A stretch of DNA of 64,000 nucleotides from Acanthamoeba sp. SK_2022b (taxonomy: Eukaryota > Discosea > Longamoebia > Acanthamoebidae), in the NCBI GenBank assembly GCA_027943245.1, contig JANDJZ010000161.1:28279-92278 (forward strand), read 5' to 3'. The notes under the pieces are model-generated. The model ran no database searches. It was given only the letters and a program-made list of their open reading frames with translations, and had not been told where the DNA came from. The position numbers and the translations under genes were made by a program. Of this stretch, positions 49,851 to 54,911 are shown in pieces (positions within the stretch are counted from its first letter, which is position 1; every line of letters begins with the position of its first letter).

Positions 49851-49923
<73 letters not shown>

Positions 49924-50155
49924 TGGTGGTGTGTGTGTGTGCGCGCGCGCGCGCGCGGCCTCGGAGGCGAGGCGACGCTCACCCGAGATCGTTTTGTCGC
50001 GTGGGCCACAGGTGACCCTGCTCAGGGCGAGGCCCAGAGGATACGGCGAGGAGACGGAGGACCCCACGGCGGAGAGAGCGGCCCCGCCGGCGCCAACCGT
50101 TGGGGACGACCTCGACGGCGACGACCCCAACGTCTGCTTCGGCCTGTTCGACTAG
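46392..50155 (+). CDS. UBA-like / BTB-BACK / SPRY domain protein
   Basis: Probable cullin-3 substrate adaptor. ATG 46392 opens MSTPTASLSEQHQERVHAFK; the next two exons (VVCQCDDRTALYYLLTHDWS, then RATDQYYDDGC) form a UBA/TAP-C-type helical domain. The BTB domain (about 47040-47640) shows FATKELSDVVLVLPGARIPA, HKLVLASCSPVLAAALHSS and FKIVLAYMYTGQASI. BACK-type helices follow (LLRLAQTYGCRELERLCAED, then LSTFIELIKSEKVAALEEEV). The C-terminal SPRY/concanavalin-like domain (about 48830-50050) shows DIGLSNNLLTATHKG, RNASNWIYIG, GVHLDVEVGVLSFSRNG and PVYLAVTFYHHDDQVTL. It ends DPNVCFGLFD, stop 50153-50155. A poly-G tract near 48805-48815 lies at an exon/intron junction. Three introns hold CA/TG tracts. 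It converges with the RhoBTB gene, 172 bp apart. Confidence 0.85.
47534..47595. repeat. (CA)n microsatellite in BTB/SPRY intron
   Basis: About 31 CA units between the two BTB-encoding exons. Confidence 0.95.
47991..48056. repeat. (GT)n microsatellite in BTB/SPRY intron
   Basis: About 33 GT units in the intron that separates the BTB and BACK exons. Confidence 0.95.
49853..49957. repeat. (TG)n plus (GC)n compound repeat in BTB/SPRY intron
   Basis: About 34 TG units, a GTGGTG interruption, a further TG run, then a (GC)9 run, in the last intron. Alternating purine-pyrimidine over about 100 bp, a potential Z-DNA former. Confidence 0.9.
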
Positions 50156-50327: not shown

Positions 50328-50635
50328 TCACATGCAGATGCACTTGGCGTCCTTGTCGGTGAGCTTGAGGGACTTCTCGTAGACGGCCAGCTCCTCCAGG
50401 TAGGACTTGGGCGGCCACTGCGTCGTCGTTCGGTCAGGGGGAGGGGCCAGTGGGAGAGGGGAGCGAGGCTTCGCCACACGTACCTGGTTGGCTTCGATGT
50501 ACTCGAGGTTGTCGCCGGTGAGGGTGGCGAATTCGGGGCGCTTGCTCATCGGCTGGTAGTTGGACGCGATGAAGTGGCGGCAGAACTCTGTGCGCGAGCG
50601 AGCGAGCAGCCGCGGTTAGTGCGCTCCGTGTGGTG

Positions 50636-50712
<77 letters not shown>

Positions 50713-51689
50713 CAACGTTACCGACGAGCTGGTTGGCGTTGTGCTGCTCGGCGAGGTGGAGCAGGCCCACCACGTCGATGTCCGCCTTCTCGATTCCGTC
50801 GCTGCCACACACCGCATGTGAGTTGAGGCCTACCACCGAGCAGCACAGCACGAGCAACCAAAACAACCTCACATGTCACGGTGGGGGGAAAGGGGAGGAC
50901 GGACCTGGTCGCCGTCTCGACCTCCTTGGTGATGTAGAGCTCGCACAGCGTCACCAGCCGTGGCAGTCCTGTCGTTGTCACAGGGAGAGGGGACAGTCAA
51001 CAAAAAGAAAAAGGAAAAGGAAAAGGAAAATGAAAAGGAAAAGGAAAATGAAAAGGAAAATGAAAAAAGGGAGTAGTAGGCTTGGCACCGAAGCGGTTGG
51101 CCAGGATGAGGATGCCCACCGAGTCGCCGCTCTCGCAGATGGGCGAGTGGTCGGTATAGAGGAACTCGAGGAACGCCAGGAAGCTCTCCAGCGACGCGTC
51201 GCCGATCGGGATCGTCTGTTTCGCCCCCCCCCCCACACACACACGCATGAGTTTGCAGTGTGCGTGTGCGTGTGCGTGTGCGTGTGCGTGTGCGTGTGCG
51301 TGTGCGTGTGCGTGTGCGTGTGCGTGTGCGTGTGCGTGTGCGTGTGCGTGTGCGTGTATGCACAACTCGTACCTCGAGGGAGTCTTCGACAAAGAGGCCC
51401 GAGAACATGGCGGCCAGCACCTTGCATCGGCCCATCAGGATGGCCTTGTGCGCGCGGATGCGCTTGCCTGGGAGAATCGACCCGAACCGGTTTGATATCA
51501 GTCACAACACAACACGCGTTGTGGGTGCGTGCGTGCGTGCGTGCGTGCCAACAAAGTCAACAGGAGGATGGAGGGCTACCTTCGACCTCAAAGGCGACGT
51601 CGGAGAAGAGGGGCTTGTTGAGGAACAGGTCCTTGGCCACCTTGCCCGCCTCGTCGTTCAACCACGTGCCTGTTCTCGAGACGATGTTG

Positions 51690-51739
<50 letters not shown>

Positions 51740-52078
51740 GTTGGTTGGTTGGTTGGTTGGTTGGTTGGTTATATGATGATGATGGTTGGTTTTCATGAAA
51801 TCGTCAGTCCATCGTTCGCATTTGCATCGCATGTGTCAATGAAGGGGGGAGAGAGGGGGAGTGGAGGGGGGCAAGCGCACCGATCGAAGGGTTGAGGAAT
51901 TCGTTGTCCTCGAGCACGTTGCGGCAGATGGTGGCCAGGTGCTCCAGCTCGAACAGCTCCGCCGCTGCCAGCAGGTCCTGCACCCCGTCCCTGTCCCCAT
52001 CGACGACGCACAAGGCGTGGAGCGAACGCATCGAGTTAGACCACTCATCAGACAGCACCCACACAACACAACACCACA

Positions 52079-52155
<77 letters not shown>

Positions 52156-52296
52156 CGTACAGTTTGTCGCGGATGGTAGAGATGCCGGTGTAGAAGAACT
52201 CGAGCACCCTGACGAACACGGCATAGCTCACGCGCTTGCTCACCCCGATCGTGTACAGCACACCGTCACCCGCCTGTGACTCTGCGTTGCGCCCAC

Positions 52297-52375
<79 letters not shown>

Positions 52376-54911
52376 CACACAACGACGTCGAATCGCGGGT
52401 CAGCCGCCCTATGCCGAAGGAGGAGTGGCCACGCGAGGCTGAGGCGTACGAGCGCGGTGGATGGAGGAGAAGCCGGGGACCTGGCCGGCGCTGATCTGGC
52501 GATGGAGAGGCGGCAAAGGGCCCTCGTCCGCCGGCTTCTGCTTCGACTCCTCTCCGTCGTCGTCTTCGCCCTCGTCACCCTCGTCGTCGTCGTTGTCGTC
52601 ATCATCATCGCTTTCGCTCTTCTCCTGGTCGTCGACCGCGGGCTTGGCCTGGGGGGCCTTGGCCGCGCCCTTGCTGTCGAGGTAGTCCTTGATCTGGGAC
52701 CGCACCAGGTGGTTGGGGATCAGCGCCTTGTTCTCCAGCTCGGCGCCCGTGATCGGCGCGGTCGAGTGGGTCTGCAGCCATTCGGCGATGCTCGTGCGCT
52801 CGTACGTGTGGCCGTCGCACGTCAGCACCGGGTCTTTCTGCACTCACCCGCGCGCACCACTCGTCAGCGTGCGTGTGCGTGTGTGTGCGCGTGTGTGCGT
52901 CGTGTGTGGCGTGGCCGGTACCATGATTTCTTGGGTGATGGGGCACAGGAAGTGCTCGGGCACCTCCTCCTCGCCCGCCTCGTTCTTCTCGGCGCTCTGT
53001 TTGTTGTCGACATCACCTTGCTCGTGGCTCCGGGCCTTCTCGGTCTTCTTCTTCTTCTTGGCCTTGGCCTTCTTGTGCTGCTGCTTCCCCTTGGCCTTCT
53101 TCTTCTCGCCGCCCCCGCCGCTGCTGCTCTTGGCCTTCTTGGTGGACTTGGTGGAGACCGCTTTGCCCCCCGCGAGCACCGCGGGGTGGGGCTGAGAGGC
53201 CTCGGCCTCGAAGATGCGTCGGAAGAGGGCCGAGTTGGCAGCCAGCACCACCCTGTGCGCCTTCACCGCCCTCTCCTCCACCACGAACTGCCACGTCACG
53301 CCACGTCACACACGCATGGAGAGGGAGAGAGGGAGAGAGAGGGAGAGGGGGGAGAGGTCAGCCGACAGATGCTCGCGCAGGGCAGGACGGACGGGCGCAC
53401 CTTGACGTCGGCCTCGGCCGACGACTCGAGCAGGCCCTTGAAGTCCTCGGCAAAGGTCGACGTCTGGATGTTGGTCCACGGCGCGTGCGTGGGCTTGGGC
53501 AGCACCTGCGCGCCACCAACAGCGCCGCGACGGCGGCCTTCAGCGTCTCGCGAGCATCGAAAGCGGAGATCGACGGGAGAGAGGAGAGGGGGGGGGGCTA
53601 CCGGAGGCACGGGGACGGGCTTGTAGTCGTGACCGCCCTTGCCCGACTTGCCGCGGCCCTTGCCCTTCTTGGCCGACTTGAAGGCGCCCCCGCGGTCGCT
53701 CATGGCCACGCGCATGATCACGTCGAACGCGTTCTTGAGCCCCGCCTGGGTCAACGCGCTGGTCTCGACGTAGTGCGACGCGCCCAACTGGACACCGACA
53801 CCACGCGTCGCAGTCGCGTGAGTGCGCATAGAGAGAGATGGGAGGAGCGACGACATGGCGGTATGTGTGGAATGTGGAATGTGGAATGCGCACTCGCTTG
53901 GCCATGGCGGCGCCCTCGTCGTAGGTGATCACATGCTGGCCTCTATCCCGCAGCCGAGAGCTGTAGCGGAGAGAAAGCGGGGGGAGCGGGAGCGGGAGTA
54001 AGGCACTGCCAACATCGCGGGTGGCGCAGAGGGAGAGGCGTGATACATGATGCTGTCGTCGTCGCGCAGGTCAATCTTGTTGGCGCACAGCACGATAGGC
54101 ACCTCCGGACAGTGATGCCTGTGTCACATGCATACGTCAGCAAGTCGGGACTGGTAGCAGTAGTAGGTCGCTGGGCGGGACCACGACGCCGCGTCGATAG
54201 AGCAAGAAGGAGAGACGGAGAGGAGAGGAGGTGGTGAGTGGTGAGTGGATTACGTGATTTCGGGGACCCACTTGGCCAAGGTGTTCTCGAGCGAGGCTGG
54301 GCTGGCGACGGAGAAGCACAGGACGAACACGTCGGTCCCGGGGTAGCTCAGCGGCCGCAGACGGTCATAGTCTTCCTGGCCAGCCGTGTCCCTACGATTC
54401 GTGCGGTGAGGCGACATGACAGCATGGCCACGCGCACTTGCACAGGGGAGGAGACGTCGTGCAGGAAGGCGGTACCAAAGGCCCAGGTTGATTGGCTTTC
54501 CATCGACCATCACATTGGCACTATCGGCACCACCACACCTGGTCAGGTCAGGCAAAGAAGGATACAAACGAGAGAGAGAGAGAGAAAGGTGTTCACTCAG
54601 GAGTAAAGGTTAATGTGGAAGGGAAGGCGAACGAGTAATTGTCGAACACTGTCGGCACGTATTCCCCGGGGAAGCTGTTGGTCGTGTAGGAGATCAACAG
54701 ACAACTCTTGCCCACCGCTCCATCGCCAATTACCTACCCATATCACGCGTGTACATTATGGCACTGGTAAATAATTGATTTTTCCTTTTATATTATCCAA
54801 TAAAACAAGATAATTATAAATGTGATTTTTCCCTTTATAAATAATAATTATTATTATCCAATAAAAACAATACGAAGATGGGAAGCGTACAACAGCTTTT
54901 ATGTTCTGCAT
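50328..54911 (-). CDS. RhoBTB-type protein with U-box inserted in BTB1
   Basis: Atypical Rho GTPase (Dictyostelium RacA/RhoBTB class). ATG 54911 (MQNIKAV) splices to [21 protein letters not shown]1; then [29 protein letters not shown] (G3, Gln retained), [12 protein letters not shown] (G4, NKID) and YVETSALTQ (G5). No CAAX box. BTB1 first half (about 53450-53215): [20 protein letters not shown]. After a Lys-rich linker comes a complete U-box (about 52970-52650): [54 protein letters not shown]; then an acidic stretch and BTB1 second half ([20 protein letters not shown]). BTB2 (about 51680-50900): [43 protein letters not shown]. It ends with the RacA-like tail [17 protein letters not shown], stop 50330-50328. 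Probably couples a Rho switch to both cullin-3 and U-box ubiquitylation (inference). Confidence 0.92.
50637..50709. repeat. (GT)n microsatellite in RhoBTB intron
   Basis: About 36 GT units; (CA)n on the gene strand. Confidence 0.95.
51006..51068. repeat. (AAAGGA)-like purine tract
   Basis: Polypurine AAAAGG/AAAATG repeat in a RhoBTB intron; on the gene strand a pure pyrimidine run before the acceptor. Confidence 0.85.
51259..51358. repeat. (GTGTGC)n hexanucleotide repeat
   Basis: About 16 units of GTGTGC within a RhoBTB intron; open in all frames and a source of spurious ORFs. Confidence 0.95.
51691..51771. repeat. (GAT)n(GGTT)n compound repeat
   Basis: About 16 GAT units followed by about 8 GGTT units in a RhoBTB intron; encodes poly-His/Asn-Gln-Pro-Thr in artefactual frames. 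Confidence 0.95.
52081..52153. repeat. (CA)n microsatellite in RhoBTB intron
   Basis: About 36 CA units; (TG)n on the gene strand. Confidence 0.95.
52299..52374. repeat. (CA)n microsatellite in RhoBTB intron
   Basis: About 38 CA units; (TG)n on the gene strand, in the intron following the acidic linker after the U-box. Confidence 0.95.

Follow-up and report, generated by a model that had tools for sequence, protein, structure and literature searches.

In a 64,000-nucleotide stretch of the Acanthamoeba sp. SK_2022b genome (contig JANDJZ010000161.1; hereafter the window, meaning the whole stretch analyzed), we identified a minus-strand gene that, as an architecture, is well supported as the RhoBTB of an Acanthamoeba, one that carries a U-box within its first BTB domain (BTB1). 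U-boxes are modules that normally recruit ubiquitin-transferring enzymes. Judged by profile, the U-box in this protein is complete; held between a basic and an acidic arm, it enters BTB1 within the alpha3-beta4 loop or immediately behind it. On balance we lean toward reading the predicted protein as a GTPase-controlled ubiquitin ligase in which BTB1 exchanged cullin-3 docking for direct recruitment of an E2 (ubiquitin-conjugating) enzyme, with the second BTB domain (BTB2) perhaps still able to bind cullin-3.

Domain architecture of the Acanthamoeba RhoBTB

The coding region runs from an ATG at 54911 to a stop at 50328 and comprises 19 exons in a single open frame of 789 residues, with GT-AG borders in 18/18 introns and no N bases within the gene. 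These bounds and the agreement of the splice phases are exactly as in the original prediction, which had been made from the letters of the window alone. The features of the gene, all on the minus strand and in window coordinates, are as follows.

50328 to 54911, minus strand: full coding sequence from ATG to stop in a single frame (789 residues; 19 exons and 18 GT-AG introns; no N)
53701 to 54911, minus strand: Rho/Rac-type G domain, residues 1-177, exons 1-7 (Pfam Ras 1.5e-49; 123/177 residues identical to Rac3 chain 2c2h)
53440 to 53700, minus strand: linker, residues 178-232, basic and then proline-containing (VPVPPVLPKP), exons 7-8
53198 to 53439, minus strand: first half of BTB1 (BTB1a), residues 233-275, profile 2-45, exons 8-9 (36.5 bits)
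52964 to 53197, minus strand: end of the BTB1 loop (A-S-Q, 275-277) and lysine-rich linker, 286-353, net +12
52922 to 52963, minus strand: first 14 residues of the U-box (354-367), on the exon shared with most of BTB1a
52670 to 52837, minus strand: U-box residues 368-423, exon 10
52450 to 52669, minus strand: acidic linker, residues 424-496, net charge -16
52282 to 52449, minus strand: intron 10, containing a 42-copy dinucleotide repeat and, on read-through, the stop TAG at 52411-52409
51903 to 52237, minus strand: second half of BTB1 (BTB1b), residues 512-566, profile 57-109, exons 11-12 (32.2 bits)
50928 to 51622, minus strand: BTB2, residues 590-691, F-V-E at 629-631, exons 13-16
50502 to 50770, minus strand: BACK-like stretch, residues 710-754, exons 17-18 (26.0 bits, cut-off 20.9)
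50331 to 50342, minus strand: C-terminal C-I-C-M, CAAX-like

Searching the whole protein against Pfam returned Ras at residues 5-175 (E = 1.5e-49), BTB in three stretches (E = 1.1e-38), the best of which is 590-691, and U-box at residues 354-423 (E = 7.2e-20; 71.4 bits against a cut-off of 21.4; profile positions 1-71 of 73), an E value on which we rejected a chance match. When the two halves of BTB1 were scored as separate pieces, residues 211-286 matched BTB profile positions 2-45 (36.5 bits) and residues 497-574 matched positions 57-109 (32.2 bits), both above the 20.5-bit cut-off. The two matches do not overlap on the profile, so the U-box is flanked by complementary portions of a single BTB domain. 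Scored in the same way, BTB2 reached 77.9 bits, and a BACK match downstream reached 26.0 bits as a piece and 22.5 bits in the whole protein (cut-off 20.9), covering only positions 2-46 of the 103 in its profile. The original prediction had described a complete Rho G domain, a BTB1 split by an insert, a second BTB and a full U-box in that insert, and the Pfam search with the U-box, BTB and Ras profiles bore out each of these elements.

The insert in BTB1 measures approximately 236 residues, with a net charge of +12 for the linker before the U-box (286-353) and -16 for the linker after it (424-496). These basic and acidic arms could pair and thereby keep the U-box at a distance from the BTB core. 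Part of the lysine-rich linker is encoded by a tandem repeat with a 27-base unit (window 53044-53106; 2.3 copies, 77% matches), which may hint at how the basic arm of the insert grew. The protein ends in C-I-C-M, a CAAX-like tail.

A Rac-like G domain

Along the G domain, 123 of 177 residues are identical to Rac3 (chain 2c2h), and among 11 positions for nucleotide binding, hydrolysis or effector contact nine equal those of Rac3, with two differing (T17S and T115N). The Gly at position 12 is retained, and the switch I stretch is that of Rac3 except for a Val in place of Ile before PTVFDNYS. Mammalian RhoBTB1/2 G domains deviate more, for example by carrying Asn for Gly at the Ras G12 position, and RhoBTB3 binds ATP (PMC4931677; this and the other papers named are cited from excerpts). 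Two-hybrid tests found the GTP form of Dictyostelium RacA to bind PAK and WASP proteins (PMC8305917), and because switch I is nearly that of Rac3, the Acanthamoeba protein likely has partners similar to those of RacA. Similarity searches of the genome, here and below, were run exon by exon with only the best candidates scored. They returned three Rac-like genes matching in one stretch, which share only 67-68% of residues with the RhoBTB G domain, and we therefore rejected the G domain as a fresh copy of one of them.

The cullin-3 docking motif is present in BTB2 and absent from BTB1

BTB domains dock cullin-3 through a hydrophobic-X-(D/E) motif in the alpha3-beta4 loop (PMC6484134). Alignment of BTB2 with SPOP, which reads M-E-E at this site, places F629-V-E631 there, whereas alignment of BTB1 with KBTBD4, which reads L-K-E, places A275-S-Q277, a sequence that is not hydrophobic-X-Asp/Glu. 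BTB2 thus resembles these cullin-3 adaptors in carrying the docking motif, and BTB1, split by the U-box, differs from them in lacking it. BTB1a exits the Pfam profile at that Ala (position 45), and the KBTBD4 alignment continues a few residues further. Six residues before the hydrophobic place lies a position whose hydrophobic contact is important in A55 and KLHL3 (PMC6484134). BTB2 has Ala 623 at this position and BTB1 has Arg 269. Human RHOBTB2 also carries a charged residue here and yet binds cullin-3, so Arg 269 alone proves little.

Pieces of cullin genes are present in the genome, one of which (contig C643) scored 189.6 bits with cullin-3, whereas the highest-scoring cullin-4B reached 80.9 and the highest-scoring cullin-1 58.0. 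Because the genome holds a cullin-3 gene, a BTB2 route to this cullin is possible. In mammalian RhoBTB proteins BTB1 is the cullin-3-binding domain (PMC4931677), and given that BTB1 lacks the docking motif in the Acanthamoeba protein, the U-box may stand in for the BTB1 route instead of supplementing it. The original prediction of two ubiquitin-ligase routes in one protein is only partly supported: a U-box that is full by profile, the F-V-E of BTB2 and the cullin-3 gene all speak for it, and the A-S-Q of BTB1 does not.

These observations also bear on the alternative that the protein acts as a cullin-3 adaptor much as in mammals, via BTB2 or a dimer, with the U-box serving mainly for self-ubiquitylation or chain addition. 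Cullin-3 in the genome and the F-V-E of BTB2 are both consistent with such an adaptor, as is the finding that human RhoBTBs are substrates of their own cullin-3 complexes; however, the domain that binds cullin-3 in mammals is BTB1 (PMC4931677), which here is without the motif, and we consider this alternative unlikely.

The U-box covers most profile positions and has paralogues in the genome

The E2 interface of RavN, in a published comparison with CHIP, includes an Ile among three residues (PMC5819833). Against solved U-boxes, the RhoBTB U-box scored 59.7 bits for 7c96 and 57.1 bits for 1t1h. It keeps the Ile of CPI, presumably the place that matches the RavN interface Ile. Together with 7xed, 7c96 and 1t1h are PUB-type domains that rank among the best-scoring solved U-boxes, and we take all three to be plant U-box proteins; we know of no plant PUB-type protein in which the U-box lies inside the BTB domain of a Rho protein.

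A U-box that has kept its fold and lost its activity, persisting as a binding module or spacer, would fit the E2-contact positions as tentatively placed, since the Ile is kept and a Pro is not, and an inserted domain could drift freely. Against it stand profile scores of 71-75 bits, for matches that span 71 and 70 of the 73 profile positions, and the same Pro is likewise missing in all four paralogues that reach that place (L002, L004, L005 and L006) and in the solved U-boxes 7c96 and 1t1h. Loss of activity thus appears to us a decidedly improbable explanation.

The genome holds at least 15 U-box matches above the Pfam cut-off (pieces of one gene counted apart). The best long match to the RhoBTB U-box, on contig C870, is only 42-43% identical, and on this ground a recent copy from elsewhere in the genome was rejected. 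In another U-box gene (L005, contig C831) the first 27 U-box residues are 78% identical and the remainder, in a separate stretch, 40%; the break in its U-box coding sequence does not fall where that of the RhoBTB U-box does. Two further U-box loci, L003 (C766) and L004 (C829), have 2081 bases in common at 97% identity, so that they either arose by recent duplication or are two haplotypes that the assembly left unmerged.

A proposed GTP-switched ubiquitin ligase

Under the GTPase-controlled ligase reading that we favor, the U-box would bind charged E2 and make the protein an E3 (ubiquitin ligase) by itself, and the Rac-like switch would set when and where this occurs, through effector binding or through release of the G domain from BTB1. 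Contact between BTB1 and the G domain has been proposed as the off state of human RhoBTB (PMC4931677), and the equivalent contact would here control the U-box as well. BTB contacts would form dimers, and C-I-C-M, if prenylated, would anchor the ligase at a membrane. When loaded with GTP, such a dimer, perhaps held at the membrane, would then bring bound proteins to the E2 on the U-box. BTB2, with its F-V-E, may recruit cullin-3 in addition, and BTB1, without the motif, probably does not.

Several points weigh against this reading. The Cys in C-I-C-M sits where CAAX boxes usually have an aliphatic residue, and the presumed place of the Pro in the RavN/CHIP E2 interface is not Pro in the RhoBTB U-box. 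The A-S-Q assignment comes from alignments that lie at the border of a split domain, the insert of approximately 236 residues could supply a cullin-3 contact of its own, and A55 does not absolutely require hydrophobic-X-(D/E) for cullin-3 binding (PMC6484134).

More tentatively, and with greater doubt, we suggest that the gene may record a change of ligase type within the family, in which the BTB1 docking loop of a RhoBTB was ceded to a U-box and a cullin adaptor became a GTP-switched, possibly membrane-tethered, direct-E2 E3, to which BTB2 may add a cullin-3 ligase. If the parts work as suggested, a Rho switch and a ubiquitin ligase would be united in one protein. A RhoBTB member with a recognizable enzyme-recruiting domain in the BTB1 insert also suggests a possible use of that site, and the Acanthamoeba protein would offer a direct test of Rho-switch control over a ubiquitin ligase.

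Sequence evidence that a single gene spans both BTB1 halves and the U-box

Exons were assembled one by one, with splice sites picked to continue the frame and the expected domains. The junction with the most freedom joins exons 10 and 11. Scored with a weight matrix built from the 17 remaining introns, its chosen donor (52449, score 8.1) and acceptor (52281, score 7.5), which agree in phase, lie within the span seen in those introns (3.8-9.1 for donors and 3.4-11.5 for acceptors); an alternative frame-keeping pair exists at donor 52480 (7.7) and acceptor 52273 (5.6). The matrix derives from the same gene model, which makes the scores a consistency check and not proof.

If intron 10 is kept, the exon 10 frame continues to a stop at 52411-52409 (TAG), which would allow for two products, a short Rho-BTB1a-U-box protein ending at this stop and a BTB1b-BTB2 part made separately or only by splicing. 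We judge this very unlikely: BTB1b supplies the part of the profile that is missing from BTB1a, intron 10 has site scores like those of the other introns, and the first Met after residue 496 in the model is residue 615, within BTB2. The open frame upstream of BTB1b contains no Met, and to exist as a gene of its own this part would have to draw on a further exon or a different start. A separate U-box gene was rejected on the same absence of a Met before BTB1b and on the fit of frame and phase.

Although the assembly is fragmented (1129 contigs) and at least one near-identical stretch of 2.1 kb occurs on two contigs, we give hardly any credence to an assembly error fusing a U-box gene to a RhoBTB gene, since exon 9 carries most of BTB1a (its second part) and the first 14 U-box residues unbroken and with no N, the U-box has a BTB1 half on either side, GC at third positions amounts to 0.93 in the linker before it, 0.94 in the U-box and 0.85 in the linker after it, and no further near-identical match to the U-box or to one of the BTB1 halves turned up in the genome search. 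Collectively, the sequence evidence makes it well supported that one gene holds the Rho switch, the split BTB1, the U-box and BTB2.

Comparison with known RhoBTB proteins and genome context

The Acanthamoeba gene and human RhoBTB1-3 are alike in their Rho G domain, proline-containing linker, split BTB1, BTB2 and BACK-like end (PMC4931677). The proline-rich linker after the G domain, a feature of RhoBTB proteins, is present here in a short form (VPVPPVLPKP, within 178-232). The excerpted review describes the first BTB of RhoBTB proteins as bipartite and calls its insertion "of unknown function" (PMC4931677); unlike the human members, the Acanthamoeba protein has a U-box in this insert. It further differs in carrying Gly at position 12, where RhoBTB1/2 have Asn, and in its C-I-C-M end; among the human members only RhoBTB3 ends in a CAAX sequence (PMC4931677). 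Dictyostelium RacA is likewise an amoebozoan RhoBTB with two BTB domains and G1-G5, but is reported to be without CAAX, and the excerpted description, on which this comparison rests, names no U-box (PMC8305917). A 2021 survey that ran blastp against the NCBI proteins of 12 amoebozoan species lists, in the excerpted text, five Rho genes for A. castellanii, with only Rac and Cdc42 members (PMC8305917). We found no RhoBTB with a U-box in the excerpted open-licence literature; an automatic annotation of the gene may exist in databases.

Near-identical RhoBTB matches in the genome all lie on this contig, amounting to one RhoBTB found. A second RhoBTB was rejected because matches to the BTB parts on other contigs reach only 27-39% identity among the best candidates, and just two of the contigs with such matches, C797 and C253, show a G-domain match as well, at distances of approximately 59 and 19 kb, respectively. 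A search of viral and prokaryote sequence returned no relative, a result that says little, with 2 of the 6 query words coming from low-complexity linkers.

The same genome encodes a coactosin-like gene and a two-exon actin-depolymerizing factor gene (exons joined by hand) whose product is identical at 133 of 137 residues to actophorin 1ahq, which we take to be the Acanthamoeba castellanii protein. This identity fits an Acanthamoeba genome.

Within the RhoBTB gene, intron 1 (window 54890-54734) is AT-rich, at 27% GC as opposed to 57% for the window, and within it lie two stretches similar to each other, both bearing a TATA-like motif (TATAAAGG and TATAAAAGG). A repeated element was rejected here, with 113 of the 157 bases searched in the genome (simple and very common words skipped) returning only self-matches. 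Long simple repeats of period 2 and 6 occur in the introns and after the gene (49853-49941, 50628-50709, 51258-51357, 52056-52153 and 52299-52381), with dinucleotides at 42 to 51 copies and one 6-mer at 16.7 copies with a 100% match. Upstream on the same strand lies an open frame (window 55395-55123) with a lysine-rich tail that ends approximately 210 bases before the RhoBTB start codon.

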